Source: Levilactobacillus enshiensis (lineage in GTDB: Bacteria > Bacillota > Bacilli > Lactobacillales > Lactobacillaceae). Taken from it: a DNA stretch of 64,000 bases. Shown piece by piece: positions 7,751 to 39,321 of this stretch. Below the pieces are notes generated by a model. The model did no database searches. It was not told where the DNA came from and was given only the letters and a program-made list of their open reading frames with translations. The stretch lies in NCBI RefSeq assembly GCF_007115095.1, contig NZ_SULH01000006.1, forward strand, positions 62,001 to 126,000. Reading direction: 5' to 3'. Numbering within the stretch: the first letter of the stretch is position 1; each line of letters opens with the position of its first letter. The position numbers were made by a program, and so were the translations under genes.

Positions 7751-8118
7751 GGGGCCGTTCTGGATTCGACTGGTATAGGTTGAAGCTTGACTGCGCGTCG
7801 TAGCGGCATCTACGTTAAAAGGTCCAGTTTATTATAACTGCAAAAAATAATAACAATTCTTACGCTTTAGCTGCTTAATAGGCGCTTAACGTAGATCCTC
7901 CTAGGCTTGCCCGCGGTCTAGATCTGGGTCCTAAATTTAACGGGCTTACGCTAACGGCTCCCACCTGAAGTACGTTAGAAGAGATGAATCAGGTTAGCTG
8001 AGTATGTGGGCCCTGACAGGCGGCAAGTTATTCAGTGAAACTTTAAGTAGTCTGCCTATGCGTGTAGACGTTAAGTTGGCAATATGCTAGGACGCGGGTT
8101 CGATCCCCGCCGGCTCCA
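7751..8118 (+). ncRNA. ssrA: Transfer-messenger RNA
   Basis: The 5' end GGGGCCGTTCTGGATTCGAC and 3' end GGTTCGATCCCCGCCGGCTC followed by CA are the tRNA-like halves; the acceptor GGGGCCG pairs with CGGCTCC and CCA is encoded. The tag frame at 7840-7878 reads AKNNNNSYALAA then stop, the known Lactobacillus tag, whose ALAA end directs ClpXP-type proteolysis. The RNA rescues stalled ribosomes together with SmpB, encoded here at 57564-58037. Confidence 0.98.
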
Positions 8119-8150
8119 TAAATGCCAGTACGTTTAAAACCTATGACGAG

Positions 8151-28603: not shown

Positions 28604-29365
28604 CTACGCCTCTGGAATCTGTACAATGTAAGGCCCCAATCGCGGGACGTCCACGATTTCAATCGGCGTTTGGAATGCGTCAGCCAGCAGGTCTGCTTGT
28701 CGTAGATCTTCTGGTTGACCTTGCGCTATCAACCGACCCTGTTTGATGAGCCAGAGCCAGTCGCTGAACCGGAACGCCTGATTGATGTCGTGGAGCACCT
28801 GAATCACGGTGATGCCCGTAGCTGCCAGTTGGCGGAGCTGGCGCATCAGGTCTTGCTGATAGTGCACATCGAGATACGTTGTGGGTTCGTCCAGCAGCAA
28901 AACCGTTGGCTCTTGTGCTAATGCTGCAGCCAGCCAGACTCGTTGTTGCTGCCCACCCGAGAGGTCTTGCACGTGGGTGGCTGCTAACTGCGTCAGACCC
29001 GTTACTTTGAGAAATGGGACCACCTCATTTGGCGAAATTGCCTGTAGCAAGCCGTGATAGGGCAAGCGTCCCGTCTGAACGACCTCACTGACCGTCATGT
29101 CATCGTATAGCTGATGGTGCTGGGTCACCATGGCAACCTGTTGGGCAAATGCTTTAGCTGTGTACTGGTCCACCGATTTCCCCGCTAGTGTGATCTGCCC
29201 ACTGGCCGCAACGAGTTGGTGGGCCAACAGCTTTAACAGCGTTGACTTGCCTGCGCCGTTTGGACCGATGATGGTCGTCACTTGACCTGGTGGAAACGTC
29301 CCCGTGACATCCGTGATACCCGTATTTTGGTGCGGGTACTGATAACTAACGTGTTGACAATCCAT
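28604..29365 (-). CDS. Heme/iron ABC transporter ATP-binding protein (FecE/HmuV type)
   Basis: 253 residues from ATG 29365 with GGGGCGGGGA upstream; the start overlaps the end of the permease gene. Walker A GPNGAGKSTLLKLL, signature [17 protein letters not shown], Walker B VLLLDEPTTYLDVHYQQDLM, and switch His in VIQVLHDINQAFRF. Family members energise uptake of siderophores, cobalamin or heme. Last gene of an operon with NEAT proteins, so heme is the likely cargo. Confidence 0.92.
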   Translation of the reverse strand: MDCQHVSYQYPHQNTGITDVTGTFPPGQVTTIIGPNGAGKSTLLKLLAHQLVAASGQITLAGKSVDQYTAKAFAQQVAMVTQHHQLYDDMTVSEVVQTGRLPYHGLLQAISPNEVVPFLKVTGLTQLAATHVQDLSGGQQQRVWLAAALAQEPTVLLLDEPTTYLDVHYQQDLMRQLRQLAATGITVIQVLHDINQAFRFSDWLWLIKQGRLIAQGQPEDLRQADLLADAFQTPIEIVDVPRLGPYIVQIPEA

Positions 29366-30314
29366 GTCGTCCCCGCCCCCGTTGTAAGAGAATAATGACA
29401 AATGGGCCCCCGATAACGGCCATCATGGTTGCCGCCGAGATTTCACTGGGAACAATCACTGTGCGTCCCAGCGTATCCGCTGCCAACATGAGCCAAGCCC
29501 CGGCCAGCATGCTAAACGGAATCACCGATTGATAGTCGTGGCCCACTAACCGCCGAGCCACATTGGGGACCACAATACCGACAAACGGGATTGCGCCAAC
29601 GACCGCCGTCACGCTGGTTGCCAGGTACATCCCCAGCAACAGCAGACTCCAGCGAATCACCTTGACCGGTACCCCAACATTTTTTAGCGCCGCATCTGTC
29701 AGCTTTAAATAGTTTGCCCAGGGCGCCACTAACAACGCTGCGACTAAGCCAATGACGCCTAGAATCAGAAGCGTCGTGGCATCCGCCCACGTGAGACCAT
29801 TGAACGTACTGTGACTGACCTGGGTTGCACCGCTGCTGAGCAACCGTTGCAAGCCCACAAAGGTCGCATCCAGGGCGACCCCCACAATGATCAAGCGGTA
29901 GGGGTCGGCCAGCGCACGGCCACTAGTCAAAATAACCAGGGCAATGAAACCGCCCAGCAGTGCCATTACCCACGCACGACCAGGCAGCCAAGGCAAGAGC
30001 ATGGCCCCGCCCAATTTGAAGAAATCCGCCGCCGAGCTGATGCCCAAGATGCTGGGATCGGCAATCGGGTTCCGAAAGACAGCCTGAAACAGTGCCCCAG
30101 CCACGGCCAAACTCCCGCCGCACACCAGGCTACTCAATATTCGTGGTACCCGTAACGAAAAGACCGTGACGAAGGCCTGGCTGCCAGGGTCGCTAAGGGC
30201 GATGCTTAGTTGCCGTGGCCCCAGCCATACCGTCCCGGCCATAAGTGCAATCACGATGGTCACCAGCAAGAGGATTATGACCCCACCGTACCACCAACTG
30301 GCGTGTTGCTTCAT
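29346..30314 (-). CDS. Heme/iron ABC transporter permease (FecCD/BtuC type)
   Basis: 322 residues from ATG 30314, whose ATGA overlaps the binding-protein stop; AAGGGGGCGG lies upstream. Nine to ten membrane segments with FecCD motifs RVPRILSSLVCGGSLAVAGA, FRNPIADPSILGISS and IPFVGIVVPNVARRLVGHDY (ATPase coupling loop). One permease gene only, so the transporter is a homodimer. Its C-terminal 20 bases overlap the ATPase gene. Confidence 0.93.
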   Translation of the reverse strand: MKQHASWWYGGVIILLLVTIVIALMAGTVWLGPRQLSIALSDPGSQAFVTVFSLRVPRILSSLVCGGSLAVAGALFQAVFRNPIADPSILGISSAADFFKLGGAMLLPWLPGRAWVMALLGGFIALVILTSGRALADPYRLIIVGVALDATFVGLQRLLSSGATQVSHSTFNGLTWADATTLLILGVIGLVAALLVAPWANYLKLTDAALKNVGVPVKVIRWSLLLLGMYLATSVTAVVGAIPFVGIVVPNVARRLVGHDYQSVIPFSMLAGAWLMLAADTLGRTVIVPSEISAATMMAVIGGPFVIILLQRGRGRHGLSTR

Positions 30315-31204
30315 GCAGCCGCCCCCTTCGGATACAGCCACCGACTGACCTGATTCAGCGCCGTCACAACGTGCATATTAGCGGTCGCGTCAAAGGTCGG
30401 TTCTTGGAGATCATAGACGCGGTGGTGCTTGACCGCTGACGTTCGTGACCACATGGTATTTTGCTTGAATTCTTGATTAAATTGCTTCGTTACCATGGCT
30501 GGCATCGCATGTTCCAGTCGTAAGATGACTTGCGGGTTAGCCTTCTGGATCGCTTCATCGTTCGGTTCCATATACTCCTGGGTCTGACTAGTAAAGACAT
30601 TCTGACCACCTGCCAAATGGACCAGATCACCCACATAAGCATGATTGGTCGCAATCATGTAACTGGCCCCCGGAAGGCCCATCAGGACCAAGACCCGCGG
30701 TTTTTGCCGATTCTGGGACCGTTTTTTGGCCCGTTGCTTCGCTTGATCGATCTCCCGTACCTGTTGCCGTGCCGCAGTCTGTCGATTATACCGCTTCCCC
30801 AGTTGCGTCAGGGTCTGCTCAAGGTGGGCCACACTCGTCAGGTCAAGGAAGTGTGGCGTCACGTGCTGGGCCTTAAATGCCTTACCAAACTGATCATCAA
30901 GTGTCGTGACGGAATAAACGGCCGTGGGCTTTAGCGCCGCAATTTTTTCCACACTAGGATTCATGGGATTGCCCACCTTCGCCAACTTCCGATAACTCTG
31001 GGGCAAGGGATTACTGGTCGTGGGTACCCCCACTAAAGGTAGATTCAGCTTGTCGGCAATCTGAACGATAGCATAGGTCGTTGCGACGATTCGTGGCTGA
31101 TGACGTTGGGCGTGCTGACGTTGCCAGGCAATGCCACCACCAATCAGACCAATCACGATCAAAACTGCCAGGGAGATGAGTCCCACTTTTCTCGGATCTT
31201 TCAT
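30311..31204 (-). CDS. Heme-binding protein of the ABC transporter, membrane-anchored (IsdE/FhuD-like)
   Basis: 297 residues from ATG 31204 with GGGGGTGG upstream. Residues 8-27 (LISLAVLIVIGLIGGGIAWQ) form an N-terminal anchor, and there is no lipobox Cys, unlike most IsdE proteins, so it is probably held by an uncleaved helix. The type III periplasmic-binding fold is suggested by RIVATTYAIVQIADKLNLPL, KVGNPMNPSVEKIAALKPTA and HAYVGDLVHLAGGQNVF. It should accept heme from the NEAT proteins and deliver it to the permease. Confidence 0.88.
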   Translation of the reverse strand: MKDPRKVGLISLAVLIVIGLIGGGIAWQRQHAQRHQPRIVATTYAIVQIADKLNLPLVGVPTTSNPLPQSYRKLAKVGNPMNPSVEKIAALKPTAVYSVTTLDDQFGKAFKAQHVTPHFLDLTSVAHLEQTLTQLGKRYNRQTAARQQVREIDQAKQRAKKRSQNRQKPRVLVLMGLPGASYMIATNHAYVGDLVHLAGGQNVFTSQTQEYMEPNDEAIQKANPQVILRLEHAMPAMVTKQFNQEFKQNTMWSRTSAVKHHRVYDLQEPTFDATANMHVVTALNQVSRWLYPKGAAA

Positions 31205-31215
31205 GATGCCACCCC

Positions 31216-32004
31216 CTAGTGCCGACCGAAGTACCACCAACTACCACCACCGACAAGAACCACAATGGCAATTGCACCACCAATTAGGCCACCCCAATGT
31301 ATCTTTTGTTTGGGGACTTGGTCCGCCGCACTGGTTGCCTGGGTTTTGGTTGACGATGATGATGCTGTTGGTGCTGACTGACTGTGCCGACTTACGCGAC
31401 TGCTATTACGCTTAGCCTTCGCCGTGGGCTGCTTAGTCGATGCGGGTTGCACCGCATGCGACGACTTCTTAGCCGCAGGTGTCTGCTTGGTAACGGTCGC
31501 ACGGGCTGGTTGTTTGACCGCCTGTGACTTGTGACTAGTAGCCGTTTTGGTCGTCTTGGGGGTCATTAGTGCCGGTAGCCCCTGCGTTTTAAATTTAAAC
31601 GAAATGTTATGTGTTGCCTTGTAGACCTTGGGCACGTCAATGTAGAGTTTGGCGTTGATATCGTGCTTCAAATCGGTCGTGGTAAACGAATAGTATAAAT
31701 GGGAATTACCAGCACTGTCTTTGGTCTTGCGGACATTTTCTGGTGCGCCGCCGTTGACCGACAACACCTTAACCGGCCAATTCGTTAACTTTTTGGCGGT
31801 CTTAATATCCATCGTGACCACGTACGCGTGATTTTTCACGGTGACTTGCGCTGGGCGGACAAAGTACCCGCTCGCCATCGATGTCTGCGTCGTTCCATAT
31901 TTCAACGCCGAATACGAAATGGCTTGCGCGTGGGCTGTGAGTGGTAAGATGCCCACAACCATGAGAAATGCCAAACCTAAGCCCCATTTGATTACTCTAG
32001 ACAT
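31216..32004 (-). CDS. NEAT-domain protein with C-terminal membrane anchor
   Basis: 262 residues. Signal peptide ending LTAHAQA, one NEAT domain (about 30-140, containing the lip motif TSMASGYF and HLYYSFTTTDL), a long Lys/Ser/Thr linker, and a C-terminal membrane helix GGLIGGAIAIVVLVGGGSWW without any LPXTG. It would sit at the membrane, passing heme from wall-bound NEAT proteins to the binding protein. Start overlaps the upstream gene by eight bases; the binding-protein gene starts 11 bases after its stop. Confidence 0.88.
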   Translation of the reverse strand: MSRVIKWGLGLAFLMVVGILPLTAHAQAISYSALKYGTTQTSMASGYFVRPAQVTVKNHAYVVTMDIKTAKKLTNWPVKVLSVNGGAPENVRKTKDSAGNSHLYYSFTTTDLKHDINAKLYIDVPKVYKATHNISFKFKTQGLPALMTPKTTKTATSHKSQAVKQPARATVTKQTPAAKKSSHAVQPASTKQPTAKAKRNSSRVSRHSQSAPTASSSSTKTQATSAADQVPKQKIHWGGLIGGAIAIVVLVGGGSWWYFGRH

Positions 32005-33232
32005 GGCGCTGGCCCCCTCGAATCAACAGAATGCCTGCGAGCAAGCCGACCACGCCCACGAGTGCTGCTGAGGATTGACGTTCACCGGTCGCTGGCAATT
32101 GTTGTTTGGCCGTCTTAGCGGTCTTATGCGTGTCACGCGCCGTGGCCATCGCCGCTGGCTCAGCTGCTCGTTGCGTCGTTGTTTTCTTAGGCAGTGCCGC
32201 AACGGCTGCAGCCTGTTGTTGCGTCTTGGACCCGCTGGCAGCAAACTGAAACCGCACGGGGAACGTCTCATTGATGTGCATAATAGGCACCGTCACGTGA
32301 ATTTTGCCTGGAATCAGACTACGCGTGAGGTCACTGGTTCGTTTGATATTGAACCCATAGACCATGGTATAGTTCTTACCCATTTCACTGTAGGTCACCT
32401 GACTATCCACAATCTTTTGACCGTCGATCGACTTCGGCACCACGGCCTCCGAGCCTAATTTCAACGACTTGGCGTAACTGACCATGAGGGTCACGCGGTA
32501 ACCACCATCAGCCGGTGTGACGCGGGCAATGCCGGTGTAGTACTTATTGGCGTCCGACAGACTCATCTGATCACTCTTCAAGACCTGATACTTCCAGTAC
32601 TTGTTCTGTGCGGTTGTCTTAGTAACCGCCGTGGAACTACTCTTGGTGCTCGAACTCGTTTTAGTTGCCGATGATGGCTTCACTGACGTTGATGAACTGC
32701 TGGTCGCTACCGATTGACTGCTAGTCGTCGTGGCCGCTTGCGCTAGCGTCGTGGCTTGACTTAAGAGCTCAGTCGTCGCGGTTTGACTGCTCAACTTTTC
32801 GGCAGCCGACCAAGCTAGCGTCAGGCAAGCTTTTTCGTTCATTGCTCCCACCGGCGTGGTCAGTTGAAAGGCGGTTGTGAGTGGACTCGTCTGTTTCGTC
32901 AAATTAAATTGGTAGATGGCCTGTGAATCGATCTTCTTGACCAACGTCACGGTTTGATTATTGACCTTCATCGACTTGATGTATTGCGCACCATTGGAAG
33001 TGAGCAGAACGGTATAGTGGTTCCCATTAACGCGGACCACCGCCTGCTTGCCAAAAAACTGATTAGCATCCGATGTTGCATTGGTTTTTTCCTTAATTAT
33101 TTTGACGGGGACCTGGTAGATGCCGTTACCGCTAACTGCGGCTTTGGCCGTCATACTTTGGCCCCAATTGACGACTAAAATCCCCCCTATCATGATTCCT
33201 AGTAGCTGCAATAACCGTTTAACCCAGTTCAT
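31997..33232 (-). CDS. Wall-anchored protein with two NEAT domains
   Basis: 411 residues from ATG 33232 (GGGGGAG upstream); the longer frame has no site. Signal peptide to about 32, NEAT domain 1 (about 35-140, lip TSDANQFF), a Ser/Thr linker, NEAT domain 2 (about 210-330, lip SLSDANKYY), a Lys/Ala linker, then LPATGE with a hydrophobic helix and RGGQRHV tail. A sortase links it to peptidoglycan; NEAT domains capture heme or hemoproteins. First gene of the five-gene heme operon; a possible -10 TATAAT lies at 33328-33333. Confidence 0.9.
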   Translation of the reverse strand: MNWVKRLLQLLGIMIGGILVVNWGQSMTAKAAVSGNGIYQVPVKIIKEKTNATSDANQFFGKQAVVRVNGNHYTVLLTSNGAQYIKSMKVNNQTVTLVKKIDSQAIYQFNLTKQTSPLTTAFQLTTPVGAMNEKACLTLAWSAAEKLSSQTATTELLSQATTLAQAATTTSSQSVATSSSSTSVKPSSATKTSSSTKSSSTAVTKTTAQNKYWKYQVLKSDQMSLSDANKYYTGIARVTPADGGYRVTLMVSYAKSLKLGSEAVVPKSIDGQKIVDSQVTYSEMGKNYTMVYGFNIKRTSDLTRSLIPGKIHVTVPIMHINETFPVRFQFAASGSKTQQQAAAVAALPKKTTTQRAAEPAAMATARDTHKTAKTAKQQLPATGERQSSAALVGVVGLLAGILLIRGGQRHV

Positions 33233-33462
33233 GGTTGCTCCCCCATTCGTTATAGTTATGCCCAACTTAAGGCACACCGAACACTATGTATGCAACCGTC
33301 ATTTAGCCGGTTGCCACTCATGGTTCAATTATAAAATTAATTGCTTACTTAAATTATACCAGGATTGACCTGTAAGGGCGGTGGTCATTATCCGCACAAA
33401 TCGCCACTTGCTCCTTTAGGCCCGACTAACTGGTCGTTTTTTCACATCCGCTTGCATTTAGT

Positions 33463-33495
33463 AAAAAACCACCACCTTTTCTGGCAGTGATTTTT
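33463..33495 (-). terminator. Terminator of the secreted NEAT gene
   Basis: On the minus strand a 13-bp stem AAAAATCACTGCC with GGTGGTGGTTTTT (G-U pairs), loop AGAAAA, ending in six Ts just after the stop at 33500. It separates this gene from the operon that follows. Confidence 0.8.
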
Positions 33496-33499
33496 ACAC

Positions 33500-34264
33500 T
33501 TACTTGACGATTACCGTCTTGGTAACAGTCTTGTACCCGGCTTTAGTTGCCGTCACTTTTAATTTCCAGTTCTTCTTAACGGCCTTCTTCAACTTGACCG
33601 TGTAAGCGGCTTTCTTAGTCGTCACCTTGCCTAACGTGGTCTTCCCGCGTTTGACGGTAACTTTGGCCCCTTTAGTCGTGGTGCCATGGATCTTCTTAGC
33701 CTTGTTCTTGACCGTCTTGGTGGACAACTTCACCTTGGCCTTGGCTTTAGTCGTCTTTTTGGTCGTCGTTGCTGGCTTAGACGTGGCTTTCAACGTGCCG
33801 GTCTTAAAGGCTAACGTCGCCGATTCCTGCATGGTCACATCTTTTCCATTCATGGGAACCGTTAACTTAAAGCCCAGTACTTGGTTCGCCGTGAGATCGA
33901 CGTCACTAAAGGTGTACGTATTTCCCGTTGCAGCTTTAGTGACCTTGGCTGTTTGCTTCCCCAAAGTGAGCCCGTCTATGTAGTTTGCCGCCGCGGCGGT
34001 CGCCGTTAAGGTCACGGTTGCCTGCTGATCCTTTACGGTAACCTTAGCTTCTGGATTGAAATACCCAGCCGCCTCAGAAGCGGTCGTAGTTCCCGTCTTG
34101 AAAATATTGAAACTAACGGTGTACGTGCCGTTGGCTAGTTTCGCTGGGTTCAAAGCAGCCGCTTGAACCTGTTGGGTTGGCGTTACAGCTTGACTCAAAG
34201 GGATGCCGGCCCCCACACCAGATAACATCAATAAAGCACTCATCACAGTCAGTGATTTTTTCAC
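33500..34264 (-). CDS. Secreted NEAT-domain protein with Lys-rich C-terminal domain
   Basis: 254 residues from GTG 34264 (GGAGGG upstream); the upstream frame is not supported. Signal peptide ending VQAAA, one NEAT domain (about 37-155; lip TTASEAAGYF), then 100 residues rich in Lys and Thr (KLSTKTVKNKAKKIHGTTTK, ending KAGYKTVTKTVIVK) that look like one or two small Ig-like beta modules. No LPXTG or membrane anchor, so it is probably released or held by charge to the wall: a possible hemophore. Own terminator, separate from the operon downstream. Confidence 0.85.
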   Translation of the reverse strand: MKKSLTVMSALLMLSGVGAGIPLSQAVTPTQQVQAAALNPAKLANGTYTVSFNIFKTGTTTASEAAGYFNPEAKVTVKDQQATVTLTATAAAANYIDGLTLGKQTAKVTKAATGNTYTFSDVDLTANQVLGFKLTVPMNGKDVTMQESATLAFKTGTLKATSKPATTTKKTTKAKAKVKLSTKTVKNKAKKIHGTTTKGAKVTVKRGKTTLGKVTTKKAAYTVKLKKAVKKNWKLKVTATKAGYKTVTKTVIVK

Positions 34265-34364
34265 GATAATCCCTCCAAAGTAAAAACTAGTAAATATATT
34301 TATGAATCCGTTTTCATAGTAGCACGATTGCTCATCAAGCACCACAATTTAGCGCCTAAATCAT

Positions 34365-34396: not shown

Positions 34397-34544
34397 CAAA
34401 TAAATAGTCAAATTCAATTTTGAAGGATTAGTCACTTATCGCTTGATTGATAGGAATCACATGATAAATAGCTTTGAAAACGTTTATTGCTATTGCTAAT
34501 GATGTTGTACGATTCTGAGAAAATAAGGAACTGCTGAGTAAAAT

Positions 34545-34853
34545 CTACCCAATATGATTTTCATGCAGGATGGCATCGACTTCTTTTTGTTGTGCTTCGG
34601 GTTTCGCCCATTCCTGGAACTCTGTAAAGTCCTCAGTGGGCATCTCGTAATTCTCGTTTACATAGTCCTCGTAAGCCTGAACGTGGGGCGTATGGGCAAT
34701 GTTCAATTGAAGAATCCGGACTTGTTTGATCAATTTTCGTTCAACCGCTAACTCTGCCCGTCCGTTTTGAACCATATTGCTGATCTCCATGTACTTGCTA
34801 CCATCCAGTCGCGTAATTTCTTCGATCAATGTAAACGTTTCGTGACTTTTCAT
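34545..34853 (-). CDS. Hypothetical 102-residue acidic helical protein
   Basis: ATG with GGAGG 9 bases upstream. Mostly helical and acidic (AYEDYVNENYEMPTEDFTEF), no signal, membrane segment or cysteine. Two predicted helices flank a central stretch RAELAVERKLIKQVRILQLN. I do not recognise the family. A plausible -10 TATACT lies about 90 bases upstream (34946-34951 on the minus strand), separate from the small RNA promoter further up. Confidence 0.7.
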   Translation of the reverse strand: MKSHETFTLIEEITRLDGSKYMEISNMVQNGRAELAVERKLIKQVRILQLNIAHTPHVQAYEDYVNENYEMPTEDFTEFQEWAKPEAQQKEVDAILHENHIG

Positions 34854-34965: not shown

Positions 34966-35049
34966 AAAACAAAACCACTACCAGGGAATGGCAGTGGTCG
35001 GCATAAGAGAGAAAGAGAATTGATTAGAAGGTAATTATTAATACCTTAC
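34966..35049 (-). ncRNA. Candidate CcpA-controlled small regulatory RNA, about 84 nt
   Basis: Starts just after a consensus promoter carrying a cre site. The RNA has a 5' hairpin (AAGGUA...UACCUU), a single-stranded CU-rich stretch UCAAUUCUCUUUCUCUCUU, and a Rho-independent terminator ACCACUGCC/GGUAGUGGU followed by UUUGUUUU (34966-34998). It contains no reading frame. The CU-rich segment is complementary to Shine-Dalgarno-like AG-rich sequence, the layout of Gram-positive sRNAs that block translation. Length and transcription are predictions. Confidence 0.6.
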
Positions 35050-35056
35050 AGGTAAT

Positions 35057-35085
35057 AATATACCCATTTTTGTAAGCGCTGTCAA
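35057..35085 (-). promoter_or_regulatory. sRNA promoter overlapped by a perfect cre (CcpA) site
   Basis: Minus-strand TTGACA (35080-35085), 17-bp spacer, TATATT (35057-35062). TGTAAGCGCTGTCA at 35071-35084 matches the cre consensus TGWAANCGNTNWCA at every position and covers the -35, so CcpA should repress it when preferred sugar is present. Confidence 0.75.
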
Positions 35086-39300: not shown

Positions 39301-39321
39301 ATCATTCAGTCTCCCTCTCTT

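Follow-up and report, generated by a model that had tools for sequence, protein, structure and literature searches.

We identified in Levilactobacillus enshiensis a free-standing, unannotated small RNA gene that is family-wide and has a conserved promoter, terminator, and cre control, a conclusion drawn with high confidence from sequence comparison. The gene lies within a stretch of 64,000 nucleotides, referred to here as the window. The explanation that we favor, and consider probable, is that the gene encodes a trans-acting antisense small RNA that is repressed by CcpA, works in the manner of RsaI, and is not homologous to any Rfam family.

In the mechanism proposed, CcpA would occupy the cre across the promoter and block transcription while a preferred sugar is present. 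When sugar is low the block would lift and an RNA of about 84 nt would accumulate. Two hairpins display an unpaired CU-rich segment, which sequence comparison shows to be unchanged across the genera read. This segment would pair with AG-rich translation starts and lower translation. In Levilactobacillus the putative targets are nagB and the mRNA for 2,3-bisphosphoglycerate-dependent phosphoglycerate mutase (gpm); gpm would also be a target in several other genera. As a net effect, CcpA would, by repressing the RNA, indirectly keep the target genes on while sugar lasts.

Promoter, folding, and terminator of the small RNA gene

An initial annotation of the window had described a minus-strand promoter overlapped by a perfect 14-base cre, followed by a 5' hairpin, an unpaired CU-rich segment, and a terminator, all without an open reading frame, and this anatomy was confirmed (Table 1). 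The promoter hexamers, separated by 17 nt, agree with the consensus at 11 of 12 positions, and the site ranks first among 12 promoter-like sites in 4 kb (shuffled sequences have a mean of 6.6 sites). The cre shows zero mismatches to the consensus TGWNANCGNTNWCA, the form used for L. sakei (PMC3146418). The RNA start, at about 35049, was placed from the position of the promoter and the 3' end from the terminator. The 6-bp 5' hairpin was recovered by folding. The terminator stood as well, with the tail UUUUGUUUU; only the length of its stem needs qualification, because the 9 bp claimed become 11 if flanking pairs are counted. Folding of 87 nt gave a minimum free energy of -22.3 kcal/mol; the 200 shuffles averaged -10.3 (sd 2.2), and not one was as stable. 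The locus thus has a promoter of its own and a GC-rich, covarying stem followed by a U tail, as expected of a small RNA gene with an intrinsic terminator.

Table 1. Positions in the window of the small RNA gene, its control elements, and associated features
Feature	Position	Strand	Basis or remark
Small RNA gene, 84 nt	34966..35049	minus	Ends inferred from promoter and terminator
-35 hexamer TTGACA	35080..35085	minus	Promoter scan; invariant in 28/28 aligned genus loci
cre (CcpA operator) TGACAGCGCTTACA	35071..35084		Overlaps -35; strict consensus in 69/79 named relatives
-10 hexamer TATATT	35057..35062	minus	Promoter scan and genus alignment
5' hairpin AAGGUA/UACCUU, 6 bp	35028..35047	minus	Folding
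Unpaired 19-nt CU-rich core AUCAAUUCUCUUUCUCUCU	35006..35024	minus	Presumed targeting segment
Intrinsic terminator, stem-loop and U-rich tail	34966..34999	minus	Folding and covariation
102-aa protein gene (c0)	34545..34853	minus	Conserved downstream neighbor; separate gene
Predicted nagB target site AAGAGAGGGAGA	39310..39321	minus	Ribosome-binding region; Levilactobacillus only

Conservation and distribution

The RNA was matched in all 35 genomes of the genus, and named Levilactobacillus records carry the same RNA. In an alignment of 28 of the 30 genus loci fetched (2 were dropped because of a different U tail after the terminator stem), the 84-nt stretch falls into 3 near-identical types. Twenty loci, the window itself counted, are identical to the window sequence; 6 differ by a single G-to-A change, with the terminator pair preserved; and in the remaining 2 this change is accompanied by one additional base in the hairpin loop. 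The -35 hexamer and the cre are invariant over the 28 loci and the upstream flank has diverged. A near-identical stretch beside a diverged flank indicates that the conservation exceeds chance.

In one genome of the genus (G034) the promoter and the RNA body are split by an insertion, which is a natural disruption of the small RNA gene. At this locus (L080, 1556-3158) the promoter lies about 1.5 kb from the RNA body, and the two matches overlap by 8 bases, likely a target-site duplication. Between them is an open reading frame for a 427-aa transposase-like protein, which we take to belong to the ISL3 family.

A lack of conservation in relatives, set out beforehand as a finding that would count against the proposal, is not what the searches showed. 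A covariance model built from 40 sequences (alignment A1) has one match per genome in 186 of 397 Lactobacillaceae genomes, in 15 of 40 genera, with genus g11 counted as a carrier by search scores alone. Left out of A1 were the insertion-split locus, one locus with masked bases, one Lentilactobacillus-type locus, and near-duplicates. A DNA search at E values up to 0.01 matched 199 of the 397 genomes; 12 of these matches were weaker than 1e-5, and none of the 12 is among the covariance-model matches. Named carriers include Levilactobacillus, Lactiplantibacillus, Secundilactobacillus, Lentilactobacillus, Limosilactobacillus, Ligilactobacillus, Liquorilactobacillus, Loigolactobacillus, Latilactobacillus, Furfurilactobacillus, Paucilactobacillus, and Periweissella, with L. 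plantarum, L. reuteri, L. brevis, L. salivarius, and Latilactobacillus species among the carrier species. The names cover 80 of at least 119 stretches, and the absence of a genus from the list means nothing.

Outside the Lactobacillaceae, a search of 395 genomes of the order that allowed up to 2 mismatches yielded no exact match to the 19-nt core. The 32 places with 1 or 2 mismatches in other families compare with about 35 matches there to the reversed pattern that served as a control, and none of nine mismatched loci inspected, eight of them outside the family, has the hairpin and terminator context of the RNA. When cmscan was run against all 4227 Rfam families, none matched the window at this locus, nor did any family match the locus in six relatives at E values up to 1. 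Among the titles listed for open full texts, none seems to describe this RNA. The small RNA family is probably new, of an already known functional kind. A tmRNA at 7751-8121 (plus strand) is the sole Rfam match in the window at the gathering score.

Probable CcpA control of the promoter

A cre that lies across a promoter confers repression, and control of this type had been suggested for the small RNA from the window alone. Comparison of relatives strongly supports the suggestion. Within 60 nt upstream of the RNA, a strict cre is present in 69 of 79 named loci, at the -35 in 59 and at the -10 in 10; a weaker site has one mismatch in 9 of the 79 loci and two mismatches in 1. This count omits 1 of the 80 named loci, whose contig offers just 25 nt of the promoter region. 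Among 3,950 shuffled control sequences there were 1 strict cre and 34 one-mismatch sites.

The operator has been relocated in most of the named Limosilactobacillus loci. In nine of these 13 a strict cre (TGAAAACGCTATCATAAT-like) covers the -10, in L. reuteri the cre over the -10 has one mismatch, and 3 of the 13 retain the cre at the -35. Similarly, six loci of genus g5 read by eye have the cre at the -10 in four cases and at the -35 in two. For two Loigolactobacillus loci the best one-mismatch site is upstream of the -35, where a repressor role is not clear. The effect of a cre depends on where it is (PMC6309078). The sequences thus have a CcpA operator placed where it would block the promoter. 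Because the cre relocates while the RNA stays fixed, we argue that the operator is under selection, and CcpA control appears to have been kept by selection.

A frozen core and a varying terminator

The core and the terminator stem differ in how they vary. When up to 2 mismatches were allowed, the 19-nt core had 0 mismatches in all 32 Lactobacillaceae genomes where that search hit the locus. The identity of the core in the 80 named loci is by construction, because these loci were found with the core as the pattern; the genus search, the family DNA search, the 2-mismatch search, and the covariance search are free of this bias. Alignment A1 has 29 invariant columns, 27 of which lie in a run that takes in the 3' arm of the 5' hairpin and the core. 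At the terminator, 8 of 9 stem pairs have changed on both sides in compensatory fashion. In this test 93.5% of the cells pair, and the covariation score is 0.305, compared with 0.162 after shuffling and no more than 0.152 for slid controls. The 5' hairpin is paired in 97.9% of cells with zero two-sided changes; because it hardly varies, covariation provides little evidence for it. In the six g5 loci read, the 5' hairpin is longer and the core is the same.

The claim that the CU-rich segment is unpaired also held up. Over 80 folded loci the mean P(unpaired) of the core is 0.93 and the lowest value is 0.51. Two hairpins flanking a conserved unpaired segment constitute the layout of the csRNA type. 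No known target accounts for the freezing of more than 30 nt.

Phosphoglycerate mutase as a predicted target

The expectation that the CU-rich segment would silence AG-rich mRNA starts fared unevenly. Pairing with the start of gpm co-varies with the presence of the RNA across genera, and pairing with nagB is found in Levilactobacillus only, but pairing with AG-rich starts as a general rule was not borne out. In two partial genomes there was no clear genome-wide excess of strong pairing at gene starts. For example, the tenth-best pairing energy in one genome was -21.5, versus -21.4 for shuffled cores. Among 259 orthologue pairs from the two partial genomes, the best conserved pairings were with a gene for a 57-aa protein (-23.8) and nagB (-23.7); the best pair of shuffled cores had a mean of -20.5 (sd 1.7, lowest -25.6). 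At the fifth and twentieth ranks the real core did not clearly outdo the shuffles. The gpm start reached -30.5 in one genome and was masked by a wrong start in the other. Gene starts were assigned mechanically here and in the comparisons across genera below, and some nagB and c0 starts look wrong.

Within Levilactobacillus, the gpm start at 30 of 35 loci paired with a mean energy of -23.4, compared with -16.8 for shuffled cores, 0 of 200 of which were as good. At 30 of 35 loci for nagB the mean was -20.8 versus -14.9, with 3 of 200 shuffled cores as good. Both genes were picked as top hits, and therefore these genus statistics are inflated.

The comparison across genera was made with 70 of the 111 genomes that have a gpm match, consisting of the 30 best-scoring loci and 40 that we chose for genus coverage. 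In this set the gpm start paired at -16.4 kcal/mol in 43 carrier genomes (15 genera) and at -10.7 in 27 noncarriers (15 genera; p 1.5e-6). With Levilactobacillus excluded, the value for carriers was -16.0 (p 6.8e-6), and genus means were -15.9 with the RNA and -10.4 without it (15 versus 15 genera, p 2.5e-4). Part of the raw difference is explained by the richer purine content of carrier gpm starts (0.74, versus 0.64 in noncarriers). Fully shuffled cores matched the carriers, own genus excluded, in 2 of 200 cases and the noncarriers in 171 of 200; for cores in which C and U were permuted the figures were 7 and 159 of 200, a modest excess. Pairing is strong in genera g24, g1, g38, and g6 and weak in the carriers g25 and g30. 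These comparisons lend moderate support to trans-acting silencing with gpm as a target, and with similarly moderate confidence the start of the phosphoglycerate mutase mRNA can be considered the best predicted target.

Expression of gpm3 in L. sakei falls on ribose (PMC3146418). We did not count this response as support because gpm pairing is weak in g25, which was taken to be Latilactobacillus. In another genome (G030), the gpm gene with the strong pairing site (L438) has an internal TAA, and a second gpm-like match is present there. A role for nagB as a family-wide target was rejected: in a test of 30 loci from the 83 genomes with a match, the pairing was absent outside Levilactobacillus (12 loci with the RNA versus 14 without, p 0.26).

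There is no long, nearly perfect antisense site conserved throughout the genus. A 19-nt GU-tolerant pattern with one mismatch found the gene itself in 35 of 35 genus genomes plus 14 scattered matches, two of which are the gpm start in two closely related genomes. In L. enshiensis there are 12 occurrences of the 12-nt GU-tolerant complement GRGRGRRRGRGR versus 4 of the reversed pattern, and 6 of the 11 non-self sites are 3 to 9 nt before an ATG. A purine-rich pattern is expected to favor Shine-Dalgarno regions, and thus the positions of these sites are suggestive only. The six starts are those of gpm, nrdE, mutS2, two genes that we presume to encode a nuclease-like protein and a ThrE-like exporter, and a gene for a 128-aa membrane protein. 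In NCBIfam comparisons gpm matched TIGR01258 above the cut-off (the G018 protein was scored), the nrdE and mutS2 fragments matched TIGR04170 and TIGR01069 below the whole-protein cut-offs, and the nuclease-like and exporter-like fragments had no match.

Alternative explanations

The frozen core might instead be mainly a binding site for a protein, such as an Hfq substitute, a cold-shock protein, a KH-domain protein, or another, with the RNA titrating or guiding that protein and mRNA pairing secondary. We regard this as unlikely while noting that the unpaired bases are invariant across genera beyond what one variable mRNA target explains, and that the two partial genomes have no clear excess of complementary starts. 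A protein site has also been suggested for the conserved nonamer of the csRNAs, and hfq is apparently lacking in lactobacilli (PMC3091779). What speaks against it is that gpm pairing tracks the presence of the RNA across genera.

It is considerably less likely that the RNA acts in cis on the downstream 102-aa gene, as a leader or attenuator with conditional read-through of the terminator. The arrangement that would favor a leader is common: of the 72 named loci that reach far enough, 70 have the gene next on the same strand, and in one of the other two it may be hidden by a longer overlapping frame. However, the gene was found in 393 of the 397 Lactobacillaceae genomes, among them genera that lack the RNA, and therefore it is not specific to the RNA. 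It encodes a near-universal Lactobacillaceae protein without an assigned domain family (no Pfam or NCBIfam match). In three Lactiplantibacillus loci the RNA is about 0.5 to 1.2 kb away from the next conserved gene, and a Liquorilactobacillus locus has 0.5 kb between them. This gap in carriers, together with the presence of the gene where the RNA is missing, makes a leader function unlikely. Furthermore, 26 of the 28 aligned Levilactobacillus loci have a TATAAT- or TATACT-like element 3' of the terminator. Regulation of this neighbor by pairing was likewise rejected, as the core pairs with the c0 start no more strongly than shuffled cores do. Used as a control (1 of 50 loci was dropped for want of a match), the c0 start paired at -12.9 in 36 carrier loci and -11.0 in 13 noncarrier loci, a slight difference (p 0.03).

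The other neighbors are less constant. Upstream genes vary by genus and include genes like the teichoic-acid exporter gene tagH, glmS-like and glmM-like genes, and others. In 13 noncarrier loci from g15, g21, g23, g26, g32, and g36, and in one short g14 genome, the 102-aa gene is near tagH-like, glmS-like, or other genes and no RNA of this kind lies between; these loci (L312-L321, L325-L327, and L331) were read by eye. As judged from these sequences, the RNA was lost, or never gained, in the sampled noncarrier lineages.

We give somewhat less credence still to the possibility that the partners of the RNA, as a sponge or antisense, are not mRNAs but a stable RNA or a second small RNA. RsaI also binds other small RNAs (PMC9266662), and the core is frozen along its whole length, but the 19-nt GU-tolerant antisense pattern with no mismatch finds nothing except the gene itself in each of the 35 genus genomes, and thus no second locus of long complementarity. 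Translation of a micropeptide from the ATG in UUAUGCC is highly improbable, because this ATG, the sole one on the RNA strand, opens a frame of just 8 codons in the window without a Shine-Dalgarno sequence, is absent from the named Lentilactobacillus loci, and is followed by letters that in other genera change freely along with the terminator stem.

Comparison with known regulatory RNAs

For a CcpA-repressed antisense RNA, the closest functional analogue is, by its reported mode of action, RsaI of Staphylococcus aureus, which we take to be the same as RsaOG. RsaI is repressed by CcpA and derepressed on glucose starvation, and it represses translation by pairing with Shine-Dalgarno regions, including that of glcU_2 (PMC9266662). 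The host family and the predicted targets of the lactobacillar RNA are different, it does not have GGGG motifs such as those reported for RsaI (PMC9217828), and no Rfam model, that of RsaI/RsaOG included, matches at the locus.

The csRNAs of streptococci share the layout of two stem-loops and a conserved unpaired stretch, which in their case is complementary to Shine-Dalgarno sequences and start codons (PMC3091779). In contrast, csRNA promoters are activated by CiaR, were sought as TTTAAG repeats, and occur several times per pneumococcal genome (PMC3091779), whereas the RNA described here has a cre in place of the CiaR repeat, no TTTAAG in its promoter, and one match per genome. In anatomy and promoter the RNA thus resembles RsaI and the csRNAs and, as far as these sequence features indicate, is a member of neither.

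The cre consensus TGWNANCGNTNWCA is the same for the RNA as for genes of the CcpA regulon of lactobacilli. In the portions of PMC3146418 and PMC6309078 covered, no small RNA under a cre is mentioned. For L. casei BL23 and L. salivarius UCC118, noncoding RNAs have been reported (PMC8220740, PMC5643018), and none in the main-text portions covered matches the locus.

Implications

If the favored explanation is correct, the RNA would be a carbon-use riboregulator kept across much of the Lactobacillaceae, a family for which little seems to be known about small RNAs. It would give CcpA an indirect, testable means of maintaining a step of glycolysis. The genera with and without the RNA, and the occurrence of the same RNA under a cre at the -35 or at the -10, offer a natural experiment. 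The RNA also makes a case for finding the Hfq replacement.

A more far-reaching possibility, which we consider doubtful, is a family-wide sugar-starvation RNA in bacteria that are thought to be Hfq-less. In that case, the core, over 30 nt long, would have stayed unchanged from a time before the carrier genera diverged because it silences many mRNA starts (lower glycolysis, nucleotide reduction, and amino-sugar breakdown) and is also held by a dedicated protein partner; the CcpA operator would have been repeatedly reinvented at new promoter positions; and the gene would be cleanly missing in several lineages.

Two observations concern the DNA beyond the 102-aa gene. The minus strand at 28604-34273 encodes a NEAT-domain protein (PF05031) and, as read by eye, further secreted-looking open reading frames and ABC-transporter-like open reading frames; a lactobacillus may thus have a haem-uptake locus here. 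A cre-like sequence, TTGAAAACGTTTATTGCT, also noted by eye, lies at 34474-34491, in the interval separating the NEAT gene from the 102-aa gene.
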